Positions 943 through 62,714 of a stretch of 64,000 bases of DNA are shown here, piece by piece. Origin of the DNA: Enterobacteriaceae bacterium. Its GTDB lineage: Bacteria > Pseudomonadota > Gammaproteobacteria > Enterobacterales > Enterobacteriaceae. The notes under the pieces are model-generated. The model had not been told where the DNA came from, made no database searches, and was given only the letters and a program-made list of their open reading frames with translations. How positions within the stretch are numbered: the first letter of the stretch is position 1; each line of letters opens with the position of its first letter. The position numbers and the translations under genes were made by a program. The stretch covers positions 62,001-126,000 of the forward strand of contig JAISKF010000032.1 of NCBI GenBank assembly GCA_031261005.1, given 5' to 3'.

Positions 943-1072
943 ACTATATCCACGATAAATTTCAAATAATTACATGATTTTTGCGTAGGGCGGCAGATTA
1001 CCGCCCTACGTATTATTCTTTATTATTAATTTATTGTTTTTACCACTTTCTTATCCAAACCTGAGATTAACT
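943..1072 (+). repeat. Palindromic intergenic repeat, copy R1
   Basis: One of nine related copies in the window. It has the shared flank CGATAAATTTCAAATAATTA, then a GC-rich hairpin at 984-1009 (GTAGGGCGGCAG…CCGCCCTAC), then the AT-rich right flank ending in TTATCCAAACCTGAGATTAA. Only one of the two inner hairpins is present, so this is a shortened copy. It fills most of the mpl to tRNA spacer. The rest of that spacer, up to the tRNA promoter, shows no supported gene. Confidence 0.8.
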
Positions 1073-1246
1073 AACCAACGGGCATGGCGATCATCTCTGG
1101 TTTTTTCATTGCCTAAAATAATGAATTATCAAATAGATAATTGTCCAGTCACGGCACACTCACTCTCACCACATTTAATAATGCTGCTTTCAATAAATAC
1201 AATCACCTACAACTGTTCAGAAAACAGACGTTTACTCAAGTAGCTA

Positions 1247-10391: not shown

Positions 10392-11348
10392 ATGAAAATT
10401 ATTATATTAGACGGATACACTCTCAACCCTGGTGATATTTCCTGGCATGATATTGAGCAGTTAGGTCAAGTCACGGTGTATGACCGCACACCGGCTGATC
10501 TCATTGTTGAACGTATTGGTGATGCTGAAATTGTACTAACCAATAAAACACCGATCACCGCACAAATCCTTGAACAATGCCCATCGATTAAATTTATCGG
10601 CGTACTGGCAACGGGTTACAACGTGGTAGATATTCAAGCCGCGCGTCAGAAAAATATTGCTGTCAGTAATGTACCAAGCTACAGCTCCATGTCTGTGGCG
10701 CAGTTAAGTACCGCACTACTGCTGGAACTGTGTCATCACGTAGGTGAACACAGCAATGATGTGCATTCTGGCAGTTGGGCTAACAGCATCGATTTCTGTT
10801 ACTGGAATTCGCCGCTGATTGAGCTGATGGGCAAGAAATTAGGCTTAATTGGCTACGGGCAAATCGGATCAGCATTTGCAAAAGTGGCATTAGCATTAGG
10901 CATGGAGATTCTGGTGTATACACCAAGCCAGAAAAAAGGCATCGAGCAGCCTAATTTGCACGTTGTCAGTCTTGATCAATTATTAGCAGAATCCGATGTT
11001 ATCAGCCTGCATTGCCCGCTTACCGCACAAAATACCGGAATGATTAATCAAAGTAATATCGCCAAAATGAAAGATGGCGTAATGCTGATTAACACTTCTC
11101 GCGGCGGTTTGATTGTTGAACAAGATCTGGCTGATGCGTTAAATAGCGGTAAAGTTGCTGGCGCAGGTGTCGATGTACTCTCGGTTGAACCGCCATCTAA
11201 AAATAACCCGTTGTTAAGCGCCCGCAACTGCATCATCACACCGCATATCGCCTGGGCACCAAAAGAAGCGCGTCTGCGTTTGATGGAAATTACCGTTGAG
11301 AATGTGAAACGCTATATTGCAGGCAATCCGCAGAATGTAGTGAATTGA
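10392..11348 (+). CDS. D-2-hydroxyacid dehydrogenase, NAD(P)-dependent
   Basis: A 318-residue protein of the D-isomer-specific 2-hydroxyacid dehydrogenase family, which interconverts 2-oxoacids and D-2-hydroxyacids such as hydroxypyruvate and D-glycerate. The nucleotide-binding loop is LGLIGYGQIGSAFA (~150-163). Catalytic residues are visible as Arg in NTSRGGL, Glu in SVEPPS and His in TPHIAWAP. The N-terminal half carries the substrate-binding GVLATGYNVVD segment. The family contains many substrate types, so the exact substrate is not assigned; a glycerate dehydrogenase-like role is plausible. GGTGA precedes the ATG. Single gene, followed by repeat R2. Confidence 0.88.
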   Translation: MKIIILDGYTLNPGDISWHDIEQLGQVTVYDRTPADLIVERIGDAEIVLTNKTPITAQILEQCPSIKFIGVLATGYNVVDIQAARQKNIAVSNVPSYSSMSVAQLSTALLLELCHHVGEHSNDVHSGSWANSIDFCYWNSPLIELMGKKLGLIGYGQIGSAFAKVALALGMEILVYTPSQKKGIEQPNLHVVSLDQLLAESDVISLHCPLTAQNTGMINQSNIAKMKDGVMLINTSRGGLIVEQDLADALNSGKVAGAGVDVLSVEPPSKNNPLLSARNCIITPHIAWAPKEARLRLMEITVENVKRYIAGNPQNVVN

Positions 11349-11352
11349 TTCG

Positions 11353-11475
11353 TTAATCTGAATTTCGGATAAGAAATTATATTATTATAAATTTCAAACA
11401 ATTATATCATTTTCTGTATGGGCGACAACCTGTCGCCCGTGAACCTACCGCGTTGTTAATGCGGGCGGCAGATTA
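11353..11475 (+). repeat. Palindromic intergenic repeat, copy R2 (3' truncated)
   Basis: It begins with the family end TTAATCTGAATTTCGGATAA, then AAATTATATTATTATAAATTTCAAA, a degenerate hairpin (GGGCGACAACCTGTCGCCC, 11421-11439) and GCGGGCGGCAGATTA. There it stops, and the last bases form the TAA stop codon (complement of 11473-11475) of the minus-strand gene that follows. The right half of the element is missing. Confidence 0.75.
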
Positions 11476-12243: not shown

Positions 12244-12331
12244 TTCATAAGAGATAATTCAAGATTCATTTTACTCCGTTTTACCGGCAGAGATGGTGTT
12301 TATCCGCCAGAAAACGCCTTTAATATATTAA

Positions 12332-12490
12332 TAAACCTGAGCTTTGAATAAGAAGTTATATTTTTACGATAAATTTCAAATGATTATGCAATTTTTCGTA
12401 GAGACAACAATCCGCCGCCATACAAATTATTCTTTATTATCAATATATTAATTTATTATTTTTACTATTTCCTTATCTAAACCTGAGTTT
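12332..12490 (+). repeat. Palindromic intergenic repeat, copy R3 (both ends present, core decayed)
   Basis: Left end TAAACCTGAGCTTTGAATAA, then ACGATAAATTTCAAATGATTA, a degenerate core (CGTAGAGACAAC…CCGCCGCCATAC), then the AT-rich arm TTATTCTTTATTATCAATAT and right end TTATCTAAACCTGAGTTT. Reverse-complementing the right end gives an imperfect match to the left end (shared TTT..ATAAG). The inner GC-rich hairpins have largely lost pairing. It occupies most of the 12244-12607 gap, which otherwise holds only the deaD terminator. Confidence 0.75.
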
Positions 12491-12520
12491 GCATTAATAG
12501 AACTAGCATAGCTGGATAAA

Positions 12521-35982: not shown

Positions 35983-36948
35983 ATGAAACCCATTGCAGTC
36001 ACCATTTTGACAGGCTTTTTGGGTTCAGGTAAAACCACGCTATTACGTCATATCCTGAACGAAAATCACGGTTACAAAATTGCAGTTATCGAAAACGAAT
36101 TCGGTGAAGTACCCATCGATAACACGATTATTGGCGATCGCGCCAGCCGTATTACAACGTTAAGCAATGGTTGTATCTGTTGCAGTATCTCTAACGAATT
36201 AGAAAATGCGCTGTTAGATCTCATTGACGGCATCGATAATGACCAACTCGAATTCGATCGGCTTATTATTGAATGCACCGGTATGGCTGATCCCGGACCT
36301 ATTACACAAACTTTCTTCGCTCATGAAGTTATCTGCCAACGTTTTCTGCTTGATGGCATATTAACATTAGTGGACGCCGTTCATGCCGATCAGCAGCTCA
36401 CCCAGTTTCCTATTGCACAAGCACAAGTCGGTTACGCCGACCGCATTCTGCTGACCAAAACCGATGTCGCACCCGATACCGATGCCCTAAGCCAACGTCT
36501 ACAACTTATGAACGCCCGTGCGCCGATTTATAAAGTAGTCAATGGCGATATTGATCTCAGCATCTTATTTGACATTGAGGGCTTTGTGCTAAATGACAAA
36601 CTAAACGTCACTACACCAACCCCCGTATTCCGCCGCATTGCACAACCACAGAATAATATTCAGTCGATTGTGGTTTATCTCGATAAACCCGTAGAACTGA
36701 TGCAAATCTCCGATGTAATGGAAAATCTCCTGCTGACTTTTGCTGATAACCTGCTGCGTTACAAAGGGATTCTATCAATAAAAGATGATACCCGCCGCCT
36801 ACTGTTCCAGGGTGTACAACGCCTGTACAACGCCGACTGGGATCGCGACTGGCAGCCTGATGAAGAACGCAAAAGCACACTGGTATTTATCGGTATTAAT
36901 TTACCGGAAGAAGAGATACGAACGAAGTTTGCAGAGTTGGAAAGCTAA
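35983..36948 (+). CDS. yjiA: G3E-family GTPase/metallochaperone YjiA
   Basis: 321 residues (E. coli 318). P-loop GFLGSGKTTL (11-20), the metal-binding CxCC motif C64-I-C66-C67 typical of COG0523 GTPases, and the base-recognition LTKTD. The C-terminal CobW-type domain covers ~220-320. E. coli YjiA binds zinc and other divalent metals; its client is unknown. It completes the btsT-yjiX-yjiA set. Repeat R4 lies just downstream, before the convergent fliR. Confidence 0.93.
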   Translation: MKPIAVTILTGFLGSGKTTLLRHILNENHGYKIAVIENEFGEVPIDNTIIGDRASRITTLSNGCICCSISNELENALLDLIDGIDNDQLEFDRLIIECTGMADPGPITQTFFAHEVICQRFLLDGILTLVDAVHADQQLTQFPIAQAQVGYADRILLTKTDVAPDTDALSQRLQLMNARAPIYKVVNGDIDLSILFDIEGFVLNDKLNVTTPTPVFRRIAQPQNNIQSIVVYLDKPVELMQISDVMENLLLTFADNLLRYKGILSIKDDTRRLLFQGVQRLYNADWDRDWQPDEERKSTLVFIGINLPEEEIRTKFAELES

Positions 36949-36967
36949 TTTATTGTTTGGATATGGA

Positions 36968-37109
36968 GAGAATAATAATTTGTAGAGGCGGCTGTTAACC
37001 GCCCGCTAAACCACAGTGAAATCAACGGGCGGCAGGTTGCCGCCCCTACAAAAAAACATATAATCAATTGAAATTTATCGTAAAAAACACAGTTCCCTAT
37101 CCGAAGTTA
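36968..37109 (-). repeat. Palindromic intergenic repeat, copy R4
   Basis: Lies in reverse orientation relative to R1. Core hairpins GGCGGCTGTTAACCGCC and GGGCGGCAGGTTGCCGCCC, outer arms GTAGAGGCGG/CCGCCCCTAC, then TTGAAATTTATCGTAA and an end resembling TTATCCGAAGTT. The last ~13 bases lie within fliR and supply its final codons and stop (see findings). Confidence 0.85.
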
Positions 37110-47851: not shown

Positions 47852-48079
47852 GCCATGATCCTGTAGAAAATAGATGATGCAAAATCAGAACCAGAGGCAG
47901 TCACAAACTCACGCTCTGGTGATGGATAACGGAAGATCCGTAAAAATCTTGTAGGCGTATTATCGTCCAGAACTTGCCGTTCCTAAGTGGTAATAAAGCG
48001 GAGTTTATGTCTGCTTTTCACACAATACCCTTTCATTACCACCGTGATAGACTGAATTACGTTAAATATCGGGATAAAA

Positions 48080-48235
48080 CGCTAATAAAGAATAATTTGT
48101 AGAGGCGGCAATTAAACTGCTGCCTATTGATTTCACAGTGGTTTGGCGGGCGGCAGATTGCCGCCCTACGAAAAATCATATAATCATTTGAAATTAATAA
48201 TAAAAATATAATTTCTTATCCGAAATTCAGATTAT
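48080..48235 (-). repeat. Palindromic intergenic repeat, copy R5
   Basis: Reverse orientation. Left AATAATTTGTAGAGGCGGCA, a partly decayed first hairpin, second hairpin GGGCGGCAGATTGCCGCCC (48148-48166), then ATAATCATTTGAAATTAATA and right end TTCTTATCCGAAATTCAGAT. It lies in the fliF/fliE divergent spacer (47852-48256), between the presumed fliF promoter area and the fliE start. The remaining 47852-48079 contains no clear promoter match that I can defend. Confidence 0.85.
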
Positions 48236-48256
48236 TTAAGTAAGGGGGTCACGCGA

Positions 48257-48598
48257 ATGTCTATGAATACAATCGGCAATGTCTTAGAACAGATCAAGTT
48301 TCAGGACGAAAAAGCGCTACGACCGTCATTTGACAGTATTCCGTCATTTAACAATGCACTTTCCGTTGATAAACCGTCACGATTTTCTGACCTTTTATTC
48401 AACAGTATTAACGCCATTAGTCAGACTCAAAATACGGCAAAACAGCAGACGCAAGATTATCTGGCTGGCGCTCCTGACATTGGTTTGAACGATGTTATGG
48501 TCTCTTTGCAGAAATCATCATTATCCCTGAACTTCGGCGTTCAGGTGCGTAATAAATTGGTTAGCGCTTATCAGGATATTATGAATATGGCGGTATAA
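48257..48598 (+). CDS. fliE: Flagellar hook-basal body protein FliE
   Basis: 113 residues (E. coli 104). Links the MS ring and export gate to the proximal rod. The conserved C-terminal half shows FSDLLFNSINAISQTQNTAKQQTQDYLAG and DIGLNDVMVSLQKSSLSLNFGVQVRNKLVSAYQDIMNMAV. It is divergent from fliF as in E. coli. It starts MSMNT (second Met is an alternative) and is bracketed by repeats R5 and R6. Confidence 0.95.
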   Translation: MSMNTIGNVLEQIKFQDEKALRPSFDSIPSFNNALSVDKPSRFSDLLFNSINAISQTQNTAKQQTQDYLAGAPDIGLNDVMVSLQKSSLSLNFGVQVRNKLVSAYQDIMNMAV

Positions 48599-48732: not shown

Positions 48733-48859
48733 CGTAAGGACACCCGTTGATTTCACGGTAATTTAGCGGTCAACAAATTGCCGCCTTACGGGAAATAACA
48801 TAATCATTTGAAATTTATCGTAATAATATAGCTGGTTGTCCGAAACTCAGGTTAATTAG
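48733..48859 (-). repeat. Palindromic intergenic repeat, copy R6
   Basis: Reverse orientation. Core GTAAGGACACCCGTTGATTTC … GCGGTCAACAAATTGCCGCCTTAC, then ATAATCATTTGAAATTTATC and right end GTCCGAAACTCAGGTTAATT. The first inner hairpin is lost; the outer arms GTAAGG/CCTTAC still pair. With R5 it forms a direct pair of copies flanking fliE. Confidence 0.8.
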
Positions 48860-48893
48860 CTCTTTCTATCAATTAGAGGCTGTGCTCCAAGAT

Positions 48894-49736
48894 ATGAATA
48901 ACGCCGCTGAACGTTCCCTGCCCATTCAGGATACGCTGACAGAAAGTGAGTTAGCGCGGATCAGTGCGCTTATTTATCAACGGGCAGGTATCGTACTAAA
49001 CGGTCAGAAAAAAGATATGGTCTATAACCGTTTATCCCGTCGGCTACGCGAGCTGGGCATGCACCGCTTTAACGATTATATGTCCTTGCTGGAAGCCGAT
49101 CACGGCACTTCGGAATGGCAGATCTTTATTAACGCAATGACGACCAATCTGACCTCTTTTTTCCGTGAGGCTTACCACTTCCCGCTGCTCGCTAAACATG
49201 CCCAAACACGCCGCGGAATGTACAACGTCTGGTGCGCTGCCGCCTCAACCGGTGAAGAGCCGCTTTCCATCGCGATTACACTGGAAGAGACACTGGGTCC
49301 TGGCATCACTCCCAGAGTCATCGCGACAGATATTGATACCGATGTTCTCAGCAAGGCGCGTAATGGCGTTTACCGCCTGAGCGATCTGGATAATCTGACC
49401 GAACAGCAGAAAAAAAACGGGTTTCTGCGCGGAACCGGTTCTCATAAAGACAAAGTGAAAGCGAAAAAATCCCTGCTGTCCACCATTCACTACAAGCGTC
49501 TGAACTTGATTGATCCGCAATGGGATATTCCAGCGCCGTTCGACGCCATATTTTGCCGTAACGTCATGATTTATTTTGACAAAGAAACTCAGGAACAACT
49601 GATGCAACGCTTTGCCAAAATGTTGAAACCTGGCGGAATCCTGTTTGTCGGACATTCCGAGCATTTCGGCACTAGCAATGGTCCTTTTCGCCTGCGCGGA
49701 CAGTCGGTCTATGGTTTGGCAGAGGAAAATCAATGA
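48894..49736 (+). CDS. cheR: Chemotaxis protein methyltransferase CheR
   Basis: 280 residues (E. coli 286). Uses S-adenosylmethionine to methylate glutamates of chemoreceptors. The N-terminal helical domain has [30 protein letters not shown]. The SAM-binding motif is [17 protein letters not shown], with [14 protein letters not shown] and [13 protein letters not shown] later. Start uncertain: ATG at 48894 or GTG at 48882, which is closer to AGAGG. Its TGA overlaps the cheB ATG. No receptor gene precedes it, unlike the tar-tap-cheR order of E. coli. Confidence 0.93.
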
Positions 49737-55653: not shown

Positions 55654-55683
55654 TTTTTTATTTTGGGTAGTTTTTGGGAGATA

Positions 55684-55830
55684 GGATAAACGGCTATAAT
55701 TATTACGATAAATTTCAAATAATTATATGGTTCTTGCGTAGGGGCGGTTGTTAACCGCCCGCCAAACCACGATGAAATAAACGGGCGGCAGGTTGCCTGC
55801 CCCTACAAATTATTCTTTTTTATCAATAAA
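55684..55830 (+). repeat. Palindromic intergenic repeat, copy R7 (well preserved core)
   Basis: Forward orientation. ACGATAAATTTCAAATAATT, outer arms GTAGGGG (55738-55744) and CCCCTAC (55800-55806), inner hairpin 1 GGGCGGTTGTTAACCGCCC (55742-55760) and inner hairpin 2 from GGGCGGCAGGTTGCC (55783 on). Bases 55717-55791 are a perfect reverse complement of 58317-58391 in R8. It fills the flhE-fliT convergent spacer, where it could also act as a bidirectional terminator. Confidence 0.9.
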
Positions 55831-55845
55831 ATGAAAGGCTGTAGG

Positions 55846-56172
55846 TTATTGGACAGAATAAAATTGACTGAATCTTGCGCCCTGACTCAGGGAGGACATT
55901 TTTTGCGTTAAGTTATTTAGCTTAACTTTCAAGATACGGGAAATCTCTGTTCCATTATCCATAATCTGAATCAGGATCATTTTGATACGCTCTTTTTCTT
56001 CGTGGGAAAGCTCTTCCATATCCAGCTTTTCAGGAAGATCCTGCATTTTAATCACATAACATTCTGCCAGCTTCGTAAATCTGTCCCATTGCTCCTGCTG
56101 CGCCTTATTAAGGAGGAGCATATTCATTTCGTACAGTTCATGGAAATAACAGACAATCGACTCAGCCATCAT
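55846..56172 (-). CDS. fliT: Flagellar chaperone FliT
   Basis: 108 residues with the start at 56172 (MMAESIVCYFHEL); E. coli 121. All-helical: YEMNMLLLNKAQQEQWDRFTKLAECYVIKMQDLPE. Export chaperone of the cap protein FliD and, in Salmonella, an inhibitor of FlhDC. The family is poorly conserved; identity rests on the fliD-fliS-fliT order and helical pattern. The frame is open 24 nt further, into fliS. Its stop is 16 nt from repeat R7. Confidence 0.88.
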   Translation of the reverse strand: MMAESIVCYFHELYEMNMLLLNKAQQEQWDRFTKLAECYVIKMQDLPEKLDMEELSHEEKERIKMILIQIMDNGTEISRILKVKLNNLTQKMSSLSQGARFSQFYSVQ

Positions 56173-56185
56173 GTTTCCGCTTCTG

Positions 56186-56569
56186 TTAAGGAGCAATTTC
56201 TTTCCATGTCTCTGCCTGTCTCATTAACAGTTCATCAACATGGGCAAAGAGTTCCGGTTTATTGTTCAAGTTAGCCTGTAACAATGTCCGCGACATATAT
56301 TCATAGAGTTGTTCAAGATCAGCGGCAATCGCCTTGCCTTTTTCATGATCCAGAGCTGCCCGTAAGCCATTATCTATAATGTTAATGGCTTTCGATACCA
56401 TCTCTCCGCGACGTGCCGTGTTCCCCTGTTCAGAATAGATTTTGGCTCGCAAGATGGCATTATGTGCGCCCTCATATAGCATGGAAATTAATTGATGAGG
56501 CGTTGCTCCCGATAGTTTGCTCTCAAGAGAAACTTGAGCGTAGGCGTTGATACCCTGTGCTGCGTACAT
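56186..56569 (-). CDS. fliS: Flagellin export chaperone FliS
   Basis: 127 residues (E. coli 136). Binds the C-terminus of flagellin and stops early polymerisation. Conserved QGINAYAQVSLESKLSGATPHQLISMLYEGAHNAI and NIIDNGLRAALDHEKGKAIAADLEQLYEYMSRTLLQANL. Between fliD and fliT on the minus strand, 13 nt before fliT. Confidence 0.96.
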   Translation of the reverse strand: MYAAQGINAYAQVSLESKLSGATPHQLISMLYEGAHNAILRAKIYSEQGNTARRGEMVSKAINIIDNGLRAALDHEKGKAIAADLEQLYEYMSRTLLQANLNNKPELFAHVDELLMRQAETWKEIAP

Positions 56570-56584
56570 ATCCTGCTCCGCTAA

Positions 56585-56607
56585 CCGGCGGGAAAAATGC
56601 CCGCCGG
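56585..56607 (-). terminator. Hairpin between fliD and fliS
   Basis: A perfect 8-bp stem CCGGCGGG/CCCGCCGG with a 7-nt A-rich loop, 11 nt after the fliD stop and about 15 nt before fliS. No T tract follows, so it is more likely an RNA-stabilising or expression-tuning element than a full terminator. Confidence 0.55.
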
Positions 56608-56617
56608 AAATTAAAAA

Positions 56618-58108
56618 TTACAAGGTTGCTAACAAAGAGTTCAGCGCTGAACTCATGCTGTTCATTTTTGACATGACGCTGTCTAAACTTTGGAACTGTA
56701 TACGATAGCGTTCTATTTGGGCATCAATCTGTTTTTGCATTTTGTCGATCTGCTGCTGTGCCAACTTCGACTGGGAATCCAGACTGTCGGTCGCTGCGTT
56801 GATGAGACCGACTTGGCTGTCTTTCCCATCGCCGATATAGTTGGTGATGATTGACTTCAAACGCGTCGCTAACCCCTCACTATCACCACGACCGATAAAC
56901 ATATTGGCGATCTGTTTAGGATCATCGGCAATGGCTTTATCCAGTTTATCTTCATCAAGCGTCATCTCACCGGTAGCCGCATCGATCTTGATCCCCAAAT
57001 TGGCTAACGAGCCATAGTCAGCATCGGCATCACCATAAACGCCATTGAGCGCGGAACGAATTTCCCCCACTAAACTACGTAAGGTAGAATCCCCCATCAG
57101 CGCACCGCTCTTGCTGTTCATCGTCGCCACCGACTCCTTGTCCAGCCCTGATGTATCGTTCTGGACATATTTACTTGCTGCCGACATCTGTTTCACCAGC
57201 GCGTTGTACTGACTGACAAACTCTTTCAGACCCTCTTTAATCGCAGAGTTATTTGGCGTTAACGTCAGTTGTTCCGATTTGAAATCGCCGTTGTTATCCT
57301 TTTCTGAGACAGTGTTCAGTTTCAGCGTGATCCCGTCGAGAATATCGGTGATGTGGTTGCCGGAACGGGTGTAATCACTGCCGTCTACACGCAGTTTCGC
57401 ATCTTGTGCGTCCGCCACTGAGATCATCTTGTCATTGACACCTGCGTCACCTGCGATCGGTTTGCCATCTGTATCTAAATGCTGACCGCCAGCAGAGGTA
57501 TTCAGAATATTACCTAGAGCATCGTCACCGTCCACCTTAACGCTCATTTCTCCATCAGTACCGGTTTTCTTGGAACTAAGCACTAGCTGATAGCCATCAT
57601 TGGTACGTTGTACCGAAGCATTAACATCACCATTTTTCTTATTAATGGCTTTAGCAATTTGGTTTAGCGATGTCTCATCATCTTTCAGCTCCACTTTCAT
57701 TTCGGAACCATCATGCTGCTTGATGGTGACAGTGCGCGTTCCGCCCTTTTGATCGCCAAGAGCGCTATCGGCATTTTCCTGCGCCTGTGTCTTTAACTTA
57801 TGCGCCGCAGCCATCTGCTGCACGGTAATTTCGTGGCTGTCTGCCAGCGCTCCGCTATCGGCGGTGGCGGTAAATGCCTTATTGCTGCTAACAGAAAGCG
57901 TATTAAACGCATCACTGCCCAGCGATTTCACACTCTTTTGTAACGAAGATAAAAGGCTGGAAATCTGCCCCCACGCCGATATTTTGGCACTATAGCTCTT
58001 CTTCAGGTTGGTATAAGGATTCAGGCGGGTTTGTTCGCTGGCTTTCAGTTTTTCAAGCATTGTTGCGGTATCCAGCCCAGAGCCGATACCCAGAGATGAT
58101 ATGCCCAT
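56618..58108 (-). CDS. fliD: Flagellar filament cap protein FliD
   Basis: 496 residues (E. coli 468). The N-terminal segment starts MGISSLGIGSGLDTATMLEKLKASEQTRLNPYTNLKKSYSAKIS; the C-terminal coiled coil ends in KMQKQIDAQIERYRIQFQSLDSVMSKMNSMSSALNSLLATL. The central region (~70-350) is Asp/Gly-rich and variable, as in other caps. Promotes flagellin folding at the filament tip. A sigma28-like promoter lies 50 nt upstream. Confidence 0.96.
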   Translation of the reverse strand: MGISSLGIGSGLDTATMLEKLKASEQTRLNPYTNLKKSYSAKISAWGQISSLLSSLQKSVKSLGSDAFNTLSVSSNKAFTATADSGALADSHEITVQQMAAAHKLKTQAQENADSALGDQKGGTRTVTIKQHDGSEMKVELKDDETSLNQIAKAINKKNGDVNASVQRTNDGYQLVLSSKKTGTDGEMSVKVDGDDALGNILNTSAGGQHLDTDGKPIAGDAGVNDKMISVADAQDAKLRVDGSDYTRSGNHITDILDGITLKLNTVSEKDNNGDFKSEQLTLTPNNSAIKEGLKEFVSQYNALVKQMSAASKYVQNDTSGLDKESVATMNSKSGALMGDSTLRSLVGEIRSALNGVYGDADADYGSLANLGIKIDAATGEMTLDEDKLDKAIADDPKQIANMFIGRGDSEGLATRLKSIITNYIGDGKDSQVGLINAATDSLDSQSKLAQQQIDKMQKQIDAQIERYRIQFQSLDSVMSKMNSMSSALNSLLATL

Positions 58109-58157
58109 ATATTCTCCTTTCAGAAATAGGATATTTAGAATATGTTTCTTCTCTAAG

Positions 58158-58184
58158 CTATCGGCTTGCGGAAATAAAAGATTA
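58158..58184 (-). promoter_or_regulatory. Predicted sigma28 (FliA) promoter of fliDST
   Basis: On the minus strand, -35 TAAT (58181-58184), a 15-nt spacer and -10 GCCGATAG (58158-58165). The class III consensus is TAAA-N15-GCCGATAA. It lies 50 nt before the fliD start codon. Confidence 0.8.
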
Positions 58185-58250
58185 ATTTTTTACCTGCTGA
58201 CCTGCGAAGTAATAACAAGGTACGGATTTGCGTTTGGCATTTATCATTAA

Positions 58251-58435
58251 TTAACCTCAGGTTAGGATAAAAAATAATAAATTAATCTATTGATAATAAT
58301 TTGTAGGGACGGCAATCTGCCGCCCGTTTATTTCATCGTGGTTTGGCGGGCGGTTAACAACCGCCCCTACGCAAGAACCATATAATTATTTTAAATTTGT
58401 TGCAATAATATAATTTTATCCAAAGTTCAGGTTAA
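58251..58435 (-). repeat. Palindromic intergenic repeat, copy R8 (full length, both ends)
   Basis: 185 bp with terminal inverted repeats: left TTAACCTCAGGTTAGGATAA, right (reverse complement) TTAACCTGAACTTTGGATAA. Outer arms GTAGGG (58303-58308) and CCCTAC (58365-58370) enclose hairpins GGGACGGCAATCTGCCGCCC and GGGCGGTTAACAACCGCCC (58348-58366). It lies in the fliD/fliC divergent spacer (58109-58695), between the two sigma28 promoters. Best copy for defining the element's limits. Confidence 0.9.
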
Positions 58436-58587
58436 TTAGTTTAAATGCCGTCATTTATTATTGCTATTCGGCGAATAGATATTATCACGCCCAAAAACGT
58501 TATTTAATTACGCCGTTTGACGCTAAGAAAAATATCCTTTTATATCAATCCGACTACGCGATAAATCATTTTTTTCACGTAAAACAT

Positions 58588-58614
58588 TTCAGTCATTTTT
58601 TTACGTGCCGATGT
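58588..58614 (+). promoter_or_regulatory. Possible sigma28 (FliA) promoter of fliC
   Basis: The -10 element GCCGATGT is at 58607-58614. At 15 nt upstream lies TTCA (58588-58591), a weak match to the TAAA -35. It is 82 nt before the fliC start, a normal leader length. The poor -35 makes this less certain than the fliD promoter. Confidence 0.55.
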
Positions 58615-58695: not shown

Positions 58696-59958
58696 ATGTC
58701 ACAGGTTATTAATACTAACGCCTTGAGTCTGGTTGCCCAAAACAACCTAAACAAATCACAATCTGCACTAGGAACCGCTATTGAGCGTCTGTCTTCCGGT
58801 CTGCGTATCAACAGCGCAAAAGATGACGCTGCGGGTCAAGCTATCAGCAACCGCTTCACTGCAAACATCAACGGTCTGAGTCAAGCGTCCCGTAACGCCA
58901 ACGATGGTATCTCCATTGCACAAACCACTGAAGGCGCTCTGAACGAAATCAATGACAACCTGCAAAACATTCGTCGTCTGAGCGTACAAGCGGCAAACGG
59001 CACTAACTCCGATTCTGACCGTCAATCTATCCAAGATGAGATCGACGCGCGTCTGGCTGAAATCAACCGTATCTCTGAACAAACTGAATTCAACGGTGTA
59101 AAAGTCCTCAGTAAAGATCAAAAATTAACTATTCAGGTCGGTGCTAACGATAATCAGACTATTGATATTGATTTGAATAAAATGGACGCAGAAAGTTTGG
59201 GTATGGAAGGTTTCGTCGTGGGTAAAGACGTTGACGCCAGCACGCTGAAAGACACTGGCGGCAAGGCAATGGTGAATGCCGGTTATAACTATGATGCCAG
59301 TAAAGTTACTGACAGTAACACTACCCCAGCAACCTTTGCAGATATTGTGAAAGATGAGGACGGCACTCTGTACGCAAAAACCAGCAACGGTGATTTTGCT
59401 GCTCTTGTCGATAACAAAGACGGCACGTTTAGTGCTAACTCTGGCACAACGGTCTCCCCGAAAGGCAATACGACTTCCGTAAATGGTAATGAAGCGAAAG
59501 TAGAAGTTGGTGTGACAGGACTTGGCGCTAACGATAAACTGCTGAGCGATAGTAAAGGCAATTACTATATTCAAGACAGTAATGGTGATCTGAAACGCGC
59601 AGAGATCAAACCTGACGCAGCAGCTCCGACGACCGCTGACGCTACAGCTAGCGCTACCGGCAAAACCCTGATCACTGAGACGACTGCCGATCCGCTGGCA
59701 ACCATTGATAAAGCAATCGCTGGCGTTAGCAAATTGCTTTCCGGTCTGGGTGCAGTACAAAACCGTTTCGGTTCGGTTATCAGTAATCTTGGCAGCACTG
59801 TTAACAATCTGTCTCAGTCTCGCTCTCGTATTTTAGATGCCGATTTCGCTTCTGAAGTATCAGAAATGAGCCGTGCAAATATCCTGCAATCTGCGGGTAC
59901 AACCGTACTGGCGCAGGCAAACCAAGTACCACAAAACGTTCTGTCCCTGCTGCGTTAA
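58696..59958 (+). CDS. fliC: Flagellin FliC
   Basis: 420 residues. Conserved D0/D1 ends: N-terminal MSQVINTNALSLVAQNNLNK and RLSSGLRINSAKDDAAGQAI, the TLR5-recognised region with NLQNIRRLSVQAANG (~93-107), and a C-terminal NRFGSVISNLGSTVNNLSQS to VLSLLR. The middle (~165-330) is a short Asp/Asn/Gly/Thr-rich variable domain. One flagellin gene in this window. AGGAAATAATCCT precedes the ATG. It is flanked by repeats R8 and R9 in opposite orientation. Confidence 0.98.
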   Translation: MSQVINTNALSLVAQNNLNKSQSALGTAIERLSSGLRINSAKDDAAGQAISNRFTANINGLSQASRNANDGISIAQTTEGALNEINDNLQNIRRLSVQAANGTNSDSDRQSIQDEIDARLAEINRISEQTEFNGVKVLSKDQKLTIQVGANDNQTIDIDLNKMDAESLGMEGFVVGKDVDASTLKDTGGKAMVNAGYNYDASKVTDSNTTPATFADIVKDEDGTLYAKTSNGDFAALVDNKDGTFSANSGTTVSPKGNTTSVNGNEAKVEVGVTGLGANDKLLSDSKGNYYIQDSNGDLKRAEIKPDAAAPTTADATASATGKTLITETTADPLATIDKAIAGVSKLLSGLGAVQNRFGSVISNLGSTVNNLSQSRSRILDADFASEVSEMSRANILQSAGTTVLAQANQVPQNVLSLLR

Positions 59959-59995: not shown

Positions 59996-60104
59996 TCCAA
60001 ACCACCATAAAATCAACGGGCGGCAGATTGCCGCCCCTGTTAATTATCATCAATCGATTAATTTATTACTTTTCTCATTTTCTTATCTAAACCTGAAGTT
60101 AACT
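59996..60104 (+). repeat. Palindromic intergenic repeat, copy R9 (5' truncated)
   Basis: Forward orientation. It begins inside the core at CCAAACCACCATAAAATCAA, then hairpin GGGCGGCAGATTGCCGCCCC (60018 on), AT-rich arm ATTAATTTATTACTTTTCTC and right end TTATCTAAACCTGAAGTTAA. The left half is missing; the break point is next to the fliC hairpin. It lies in the fliC/cheW convergent spacer. Confidence 0.85.
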
Positions 60105-60187: not shown

Positions 60188-60694
60188 TCAGTTATACGCG
60201 GCGTCTGCGGTCTTTTCTATCAGCGCCATTTCTTCACTGTTAAGCAATTTTTCGATGTCAACCAGAATCAGCATACGCTCTTCCAGAGCGCCTAGCCCAA
60301 GCAGGTACTCTGTTGATAACGTTACGCTTAGATCCGGCGCAGGGCGGATCTGCTCTGCGCTCAGTGATAGCACATCAGATACGCCATCGACGACAATCCC
60401 CACTTTTCGATTCGCGAGGCTCAGAACAATCACCACAGTATTGTCGTCAAATTCTGCCGAATCGAGACGGAATTTGACGCGCAGATCGACGATAGGCACG
60501 ATCACTCCGCGCAGATTAGTCACGCCGGTAATAAAATCCGGCGTATTGGCAATGCGAGTTACCCGCTCATAGCTGCGGATTTCCTGAACTTTCAGGATCT
60601 CAATGCCGTACTCTTCCTGACCAAGAGTAAATACAAGGTATTCATTTCCCGCGTTATCGTGGGTAAGCTGCTTTTCTGTATCAGATAAATTCAT
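60188..60694 (-). CDS. cheW: Chemotaxis coupling protein CheW
   Basis: 168 residues (E. coli 167). An SH3-like fold that couples receptors to Che[47 protein letters not shown] and [10 protein letters not shown]. Start at 60694 ([10 protein letters not shown]); an in-frame start at 60739 would run into cheA. Last gene of the mot-che operon. Its usual partners, the receptors, are not encoded in the window. Confidence 0.96.
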
Positions 60695-60722
60695 TGTAGT
60701 ACCTTTTTTTCCTGCTCTGGGT

Positions 60723-62714
60723 TCAGCCAGCTTCGGCAATCAGTTGTTGGTTTTTTGCCAGAGACGTCAGGGCTGCAATATCAAGGATCAGAGCTACACT
60801 TCCGTCCCCTAAAATAGTTGCAGCAGAAATACCTGGCACTTTGCGATAGTTTTGTTCAAGGTTTTTGACGACGACTTGATGCTGTCCAATCAGTTGATCC
60901 ACCAGCAAGGCATAGCGGTTACCGGCGCTCTGCACGATAACGGCAATCCCATCTTTGATGTCGCGGGAATCACTGTCGATACTGAACAACTGGTGCAATT
61001 CGATCAACGGCAGATACTCTTCACGCACCTGTAACATCAGCTCGCCGCCCGTCATTCGGTACAGCGGCATTTCAGACAGCATCAGCGATTCCATCACCGT
61101 TCCAAGCGGTAGAACATAAATTTCTGATCCTACCCGTACCGACATTCCGTCCAGAATAGCCAGCGTCAACGGCAGAATGATGCGGATCGTAGTACCCCGT
61201 CCCTGCTCAGAGTGGATAGTAACGTGACCGCCCATTTCCTGAATGTTACGTCTGACGACGTCCATTCCCACTCCGCGACCAGATACATCGGTCACTTTTT
61301 CCGCCGTAGAGAAACCGGCAGCAAAAATCAGCAGCCAAACTTCGTCATCGCTCATAGCGTCACTGACCGATAGCCCTTGCGAGTGCGCTCTGGCAAGAAT
61401 TTTTTCGCGGCTCAAACCTGCGCCGTCGTCCACCACTTCGATCACAATGTTGCCGCCATGATGCTCTGCTGATAGCGTCAGACTGCCTTTATCCGGTTTA
61501 CCGTTGGCTCGACGGACTTCCACCGATTCGATGCCGTGGTCGAGACTATTACGTACCAAGTGCGTCATCGGATCGATAATGCGTTCAATCAGGCTCTTAT
61601 CCAGCTCAGCCGATCCCCCTAACAGCGTCAGCTCAACTTCTTTATTTAGCTTACCTGCCAGATCGTGTACTAAGCGCGGGAAACGGCTAAAGACATATTC
61701 CATCGGCATCATTCGAATGGACATTACCGATTCCTGCAAGTCACGCGCATTGCGCTCTAACTGCACAATGCTGTTCATCAGCGCATCGTGATTGGTCTGC
61801 TCCAACGCGCCGGAAAGCTGTGTCAGCATCGCTTGGGTGATGATCAGCTCACCCACCTGATTAATGATTTGGTCAACTTTTTCTACTGCGACGCGAATAC
61901 TGCCGGATTCGGCACTCTGCGCGTGTGTTCCCGCCCGTGGACGGTGGGCTGCCGGAGCAGTAGAAGATGAGGTCTCCGATGAAGCGGGAAGCGGTGTTTC
62001 CGGTACAGTTGCTTTAACGTCCACTTTTGGCGCTGGCGCAGCATTGTCAGATACCTGCGGATCTTCCGTTATCGTGATCTGTTCTGATTCCAGCACAAAA
62101 CACAGCACTGCCTGAATATCGTCCGCAGACACCGTTGTCACCAAGCGCGCCTGTAGACTATCTCCCTGATGTTGTAATTCGCTGACCGTCCCCATCGTTT
62201 CCAGTTCTTGCGTCAATGGCTGGCGATCTTTTTCTTGCAGCCCGCTTAGAGTGACGGTGAGCACTTTGCCTGCATCGCTCACCGATGACGCCATTACAGG
62301 AGGCGCGGATTCTGGCACGGCGGCTGATTGATTCTCCAGTGCTATCGTCCTCAGGGCTTCGCAAATATAGCGGAAGCTATCCTGATCCGGCTCCTGAGAG
62401 GATTTATAGGCATCGAGCTGATCCTGCATAATATCTTTACTCTCCAGAAACAGATTAATGAGATTATCGTTTAGCTGAAGAGCGCCACTGCGTGCATCGT
62501 CCAGCAGATTTTCCAGAATATGGGTCGTTTCCTGTAAAACAGTAAAACCAAAAGTACCCGCTCCGCCTTTAATGGAGTGCGCGGCGCGGAAAATAGCGTT
62601 CAGGCTTTCTCGATCCGGTTCACCCGGATTAAGTTCCAGCAGATGGCTTTCCATATCGGCAAGAAGCTCATCTGCTTCGTCAAAAAAGGTCTGATAAAAC
62701 TCGCTGATGTCCAT
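60723..62714 (-). CDS. cheA: Chemotaxis sensor histidine kinase CheA
   Basis: 663 residues (E. coli 654). P1 HPt domain with the phosphorylated H46 ([14 protein letters not shown]. coli H48), P2 CheY-binding domain (~155-225), P3 dimerisation (~260-320), P4 kinase with the N box [11 protein letters not shown] and G boxes VDDGAGLS and [18 protein letters not shown], and P5 CheW-like domain (~510-650). A Pro/Ala/Ser-rich linker lies at ~225-260. Start at 62714 ([11 protein letters not shown]), one base after the motB stop; the frame continues upstream inside motB and was rejected. Confidence 0.97.

Follow-up and report, generated by a model that had tools for sequence, protein, structure and literature searches.

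An inverted pair of MITE-like palindromes with GTAG-tagged hairpins around the flagellar genes fliT, fliS and fliD in an Enterobacteriaceae genome

Is a long perfect inverted repeat around flagellar genes the mark of an invertible segment, or is it ordinary repeat DNA that happens to lie in opposite orientations? The question arises in a 64-kb stretch of DNA (hereafter the window), in which positions 55717-55791, read on the minus strand, are identical to positions 58317-58391 on the plus strand. Exact comparison confirms the first-pass annotation on this point: the match is 75 bp long and cannot be extended at either end. Without gaps the arms reach 104 nt at 93% identity (55699-55802 and 58306-58409, spacing 2503), and in direct orientation the longest run common to both sides is 10 bp. 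Also as annotated, the pair encloses three genes, all of them on the minus strand and inside 55717-58391. These are fliT (55846-56196; NCBIfam PRK10548 with an E value of 2e-9, which is below the cut-off, and syntenic with FliT of relatives), fliS (56186-56569; NCBIfam fliS, 101 bits for a cut-off of 54) and fliD (56618-58108; NCBIfam PRK08032 FliD, 371 bits, just under the cut-off of 387). The length of the match is far beyond chance, yet it is accounted for by the repeat family to which both sides belong.

The two sides are parts of larger elements, R7 and R8. The profile-matched part of R7 covers 55682-55830 on the minus strand (nhmmer profile match of 116 bits, together with a covariance-model match). 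R7 is a pair of GTAG-tagged hairpins with degenerate outer ends, and it occupies the convergent gap between flhE and fliT. R8 (58248-58438, plus strand, nhmmer profile match of 146 bits) is nearly full length, retains both inverted ends (TTAATTAACCTCAGG... and ...TTCAGGTTAATTA) and sits in the divergent gap between fliD and fliC. With considerable confidence, we assign both R7 and R8 to a non-coding MITE-like palindrome that is dispersed in many copies and built around facing REP hairpins with GTAG tags. As at least some 145 such copies are dispersed in the genome, the pair is most likely plain repeat DNA rather than a flagellar switch. The striking perfect inverted repeat around these flagellar genes is thus explained by a genome-wide repeat family.

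According to iterated profiles, built on genome stretches taken from around copies, the element is an imperfect palindrome of approximately 200 bp, and its inverted ends, TTAATTAACCTCAGGTTTGGATAAG and CTTATCCGAAGTTCAGGTTAATTAA, measure about 25 bp. Most copies match the profile over nearly its full length on both strands, which indicates that the element is palindromic and has inverted ends. Its core, the most conserved part across the family, comprises two facing GTAG-tagged hairpins, GTAGGGGCGG...CCGCCCCTAC. The stems are of the GGCA/TGCC, GACA/TGTC or GGTT/AACC types, each of which is found on either side, and both arms of a stem switch together. In these stems 96.8% of cells are paired, and double changes number 59, as opposed to 19 in shuffles. 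At the level of sequence, such paired changes support conservation of the putative hairpins or, alternatively, the exchange of whole hairpins between copies. The predicted RNA folds of R7 and R8 are likewise strong hairpins, with z scores of about -2.9 and -3.4. A search of Rfam with the repeat returned nothing relevant. A phage origin was also considered and rejected, as the repeat had no match in phage records.

Several counts document the abundance of the family. R8 used as a DNA query yields at least 57 matches in its own genome, and 116 distinct copies were found in the fetched stretches. The covariance model of the core gives at least 150 matches in the 2.76-Mb genome, or at least about 145 distinct ones after removal of those matched on both strands, which is a lower bound. 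The tagged-hairpin pattern (GTAGGGGCGGTTGTTAACCGCC-type) occurs 242 times, against 0 for the reversed control, and the end pattern 137 times. Several copies are located at contig ends, which is what breaks of the assembly at repeats would produce. Some copies are arranged in tandem with a spacing of approximately 163-183 bp, on contigs C23 (L025, 23700-25000), C48 (L036) and C1 (L080 and L081), and the copies of such arrays resemble each other more than unlinked copies do.

The first-pass annotation had already placed the pair within a repeat family, and further copies are indeed present in the window as well as elsewhere in the genome. The window contains nine, including R7 and R8, all in gaps between long ORFs. 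Profile matches place the others at 947-1073 (minus strand), 11352-11474 (minus strand, in the convergent gap between ORFs that end at 11348 on the plus and 11473 on the minus strand), 12330-12491 (degenerate, no strand assigned), 36948-37109 (plus strand, in the convergent gap between ORFs that end at 36948 on the plus and 37097 on the minus strand), 48067-48238 (plus strand, upstream of ORF 48257-48598), 48741-48858 (plus strand, upstream of ORF 48882-49736) and 59996-60104 (minus strand, between the end of fliC at 59958 and ORF 60188-60739). The copies at 11352-11474, 36948-37109 and 55682-55830 span their convergent gaps almost exactly, up to both stop codons, and look as if they had been placed as shared 3' ends of both genes.

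The design of the element recalls the GTAG-tagged REPs and their dimers (BIMEs) of Di Nocera et al. 2013 (PMC3733652). By description, which is the level of this comparison, the two have in common the GTAG tag next to an 8-bp GC-rich stem with a 3-nt loop, head-to-head dimers with GTAG on the outside, compensatory stem variants, high copy number in intergenic positions including convergent gaps, and tandem clusters (PMC3733652). The overall design is the same as in A. variabilis, where GTAG-15 dimers occur inside long palindromes (PMC3733652). Association of GTAG REPs with RAYT genes is frequent, not universal, and the enterobacterial GTAG-3 family is confined to the Escherichia-Salmonella-Klebsiella cluster (PMC3733652). 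The present family differs in that no copy could be seen to flank a RAYT gene, no RAYT transposase having been found in this genome. As for MITEs, the element, at approximately 200 bp with ends of about 25 bp, is within the usual limits of 70-300 bp and terminal inverted repeats of 15-30 bp, and it has no coding capacity. It resembles the enterobacterial MITEs ERIC/RU-1 (127 bp), YPAL/RU-2 (167-168 bp) and RU-3 (103 bp) in being short, non-coding, palindromic and dispersed between genes (PMC2759123). Inspected by eye, the printed sequences of RU-2 and RU-3 contain neither the ends nor the core found here, while ERIC was compared by description (PMC2759123). The family is best filed as a lineage-restricted REP-dimer or MITE-like family, and its palindromes of some 200 bp, with a GTAG-hairpin dimer and mix-and-match stems, make a useful addition to the REP/MITE catalogue.

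How then did two copies 2.5 kb apart come to have 75 identical bp? The first-pass annotation held that other copies differ more from each other, and that the pair is therefore recent or homogenised by gene conversion. As to the length of the exact run it was correct, since that of R7 and R8 is the longest among 6,635 copy pairs; the next are of 69 bp, between R7 and an unlinked copy, and of 67 and 64 bp in other unlinked pairs. By aligned core, however, the nearest copy to R7 is an unlinked one (C10:52136), with 75 identities out of 76 as against 74 out of 76 for R8, and in three unlinked pairs the likeness equals or exceeds that of R7 and R8. In alignments of approximately 200 bp, some of which take in sequence outside the elements, R7 and R8 have 75% identity, which does not exceed the likeness of either to other copies. 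R7, R8, C10:52136 and C10:58812 have the GTTTATTTCATCG and CGCAAGAACCATATAATTATTT variants in common, and membership of this subfamily of four, half of it here and half on contig C10, accounts for most of the R7-R8 identity. The fact that neighbours hold the longest exact run is at most a hint of a local effect.

Two such effects deserve consideration. R7 and R8 might derive one from the other by local transposition or duplication, an origin that we regard as not very likely; they belong to the same subfamily at close range, and its two remaining members are also neighbours, 6.7 kb apart, but the outer parts of R7 and R8 are as different as those of unlinked copies. Alternatively, local gene conversion between older insertions might have created the identity. 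The outer parts, which diverge more sharply than the identical core, fit such an event, as does the record run of a neighbouring pair. Likeness is also higher among copies less than 1 kb apart than among unlinked ones (mean 0.80 versus 0.72, p = 0.004), though the former are tandem units. At distances of 1-15 kb, which concern about 46 of the 3,486 compared pairs, likeness is not significantly higher than between unlinked copies (p = 0.07 with the R7-R8 pair and 0.10 without it). Across the family no other part of the element is as conserved as the core, and since the core of R7 differs from that of an unlinked copy at one position fewer than from that of R8, local homogenisation is not needed. 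Gene conversion is thus an unlikely source of the identity, and the annotated choice between recency and conversion is weakly supported. A permutation p of 0 for the clustering of R7-R8 differences was set aside: unrelated flanks enter into it, and it takes no account of the family-wide conservation of the core.

Could the pair nevertheless work as a phase-variation switch, in which fliTSD is flipped by recombination of R7 with R8 and the expression of fliD or fliC changes, as the first-pass annotation proposed? The minimum usually quoted for RecA recombination in E. coli is 20-30 bp, which the 75 bp of perfect inverted identity exceeds, and with only 10 bp of direct identity the main expected outcome is inversion rather than deletion. 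The promoters argue against it. A candidate sigma28-like fliD promoter, TAATCTTT-N11-GCCGATAG, lies inside the segment between R8 and fliD (58157-58184, minus strand, 5' end near 58184) and matches TAAAGTTT-N11-GCCGATAA at 13 of 16 positions. The best candidate for fliC, a weak site with 10 of 16 matches and a GCCGATGT -10, lies outside (58588-58614, plus strand, upstream of fliC). Both are consensus matches only, of a kind that at the level of 12 of 16 occurs 19 times in the window. With these positions, inversion would separate neither gene from its promoter: that of fliD would travel with fliD, and the fliC candidate would stay with fliC. The proposed effect on expression is therefore not supported.

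The enzymatic evidence goes in the same direction. No recombinase gene is visible near the segment, from 48 to 64 kb of the window, and the single Resolvase-family gene of the genome, which codes for a 183-aa protein, is on contig C36. By eye, AGGTTT..GGATAA appeared common to the repeat ends and to Gin-type sites, but ungapped comparison led us to reject serine-invertase sites, as no site between 55.0 and 60.2 kb comes as close as 9 mismatches to gix or hix. In three relatives' loci with the same flhA-flhE-fliTSD-fliC order (L097, L098 and Rahnella L011), fliTSD has the orientation of the window without variation, and the repeats are absent there. The locus does resemble the Salmonella hin/fljBA switch and the C. 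difficile flg switch with RecV (PMC5386303) in having inverted repeats beside flagellar genes. In those systems, however, a dedicated recombinase turns a promoter or leader around relative to its gene, whereas here the genes would take their promoter with them and no recombinase gene lies alongside. Of the hallmarks of a phase switch looked for here, the bounding inverted repeats are present, but neither a nearby recombinase or its sites nor a promoter that inversion would separate from its gene, and such a function is highly improbable. We consider it just as hard to believe that R7 and R8 recombine often in growing cells and maintain a subpopulation in which inverted fliTSD reads toward fliC; if this were so, frequent inversion would alter cap and chaperone levels. 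Rare RecA-mediated inversion of fliTSD is possible, and any such event would carry fliD along with its own promoter.

To return to the dispersed family, its copies would have arrived by transposition in trans and be tolerated in intergenic gaps, and those at gene ends may terminate transcripts or stabilise them by forming hairpins in the RNA. The 75 bp common to R7 and R8 would stem from one recent subfamily with two further copies on contig C10, perhaps aided by a local hop or conversion, and their inverted placement around fliTSD would be incidental. No cognate transposase was found in the genome, whose assembly is 94% complete. Y1_Tnp has a single match, to an IS200-like protein of 148 aa, and no family copy is present in the 1.5 kb fetched around its gene. 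A RAYT was rejected as mobiliser on the grounds that this IS200-like gene was the only one found, an absence that is not final at 94% completeness. In a test for target-site duplications, 4 of 30 copies had matching 4-mers, a number reached by 135 of 2000 shuffles.

The family appears to be restricted to this lineage. With the 14 best candidates per genome considered, so that weak relatives of the family could escape, the covariance model of the core found essentially nothing in 294 relatives. The single weak match (L128, G130:C4:363838-363949, E 5e-5) is in another genus. R8 as a DNA query had no match in 59 relatives, and the profile search of relatives' fli loci detected no copy (best E 0.56). 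The divergent arrangement of fliC and fliD is found in nearly every Enterobacteriaceae locus that shows both genes. One locus of the family (L120, G014) has them co-directional, unlike the rest, and so do three loci of other families (L123-L125).

Two minor observations concern neighbouring genes. On contig C36 (L143, 5857-7225), the 183-aa serine recombinase is followed by a 235-aa protein, which we take to resemble a phage Mom-type protein, and its neighbours presumably resemble defence genes of the dndB, dndC and dndD types. In the window, the short ORF 48257-48598, which we assume to be fliE-like from its sequence and position, is flanked by the family copies at 48067-48238 and 48741-48858.
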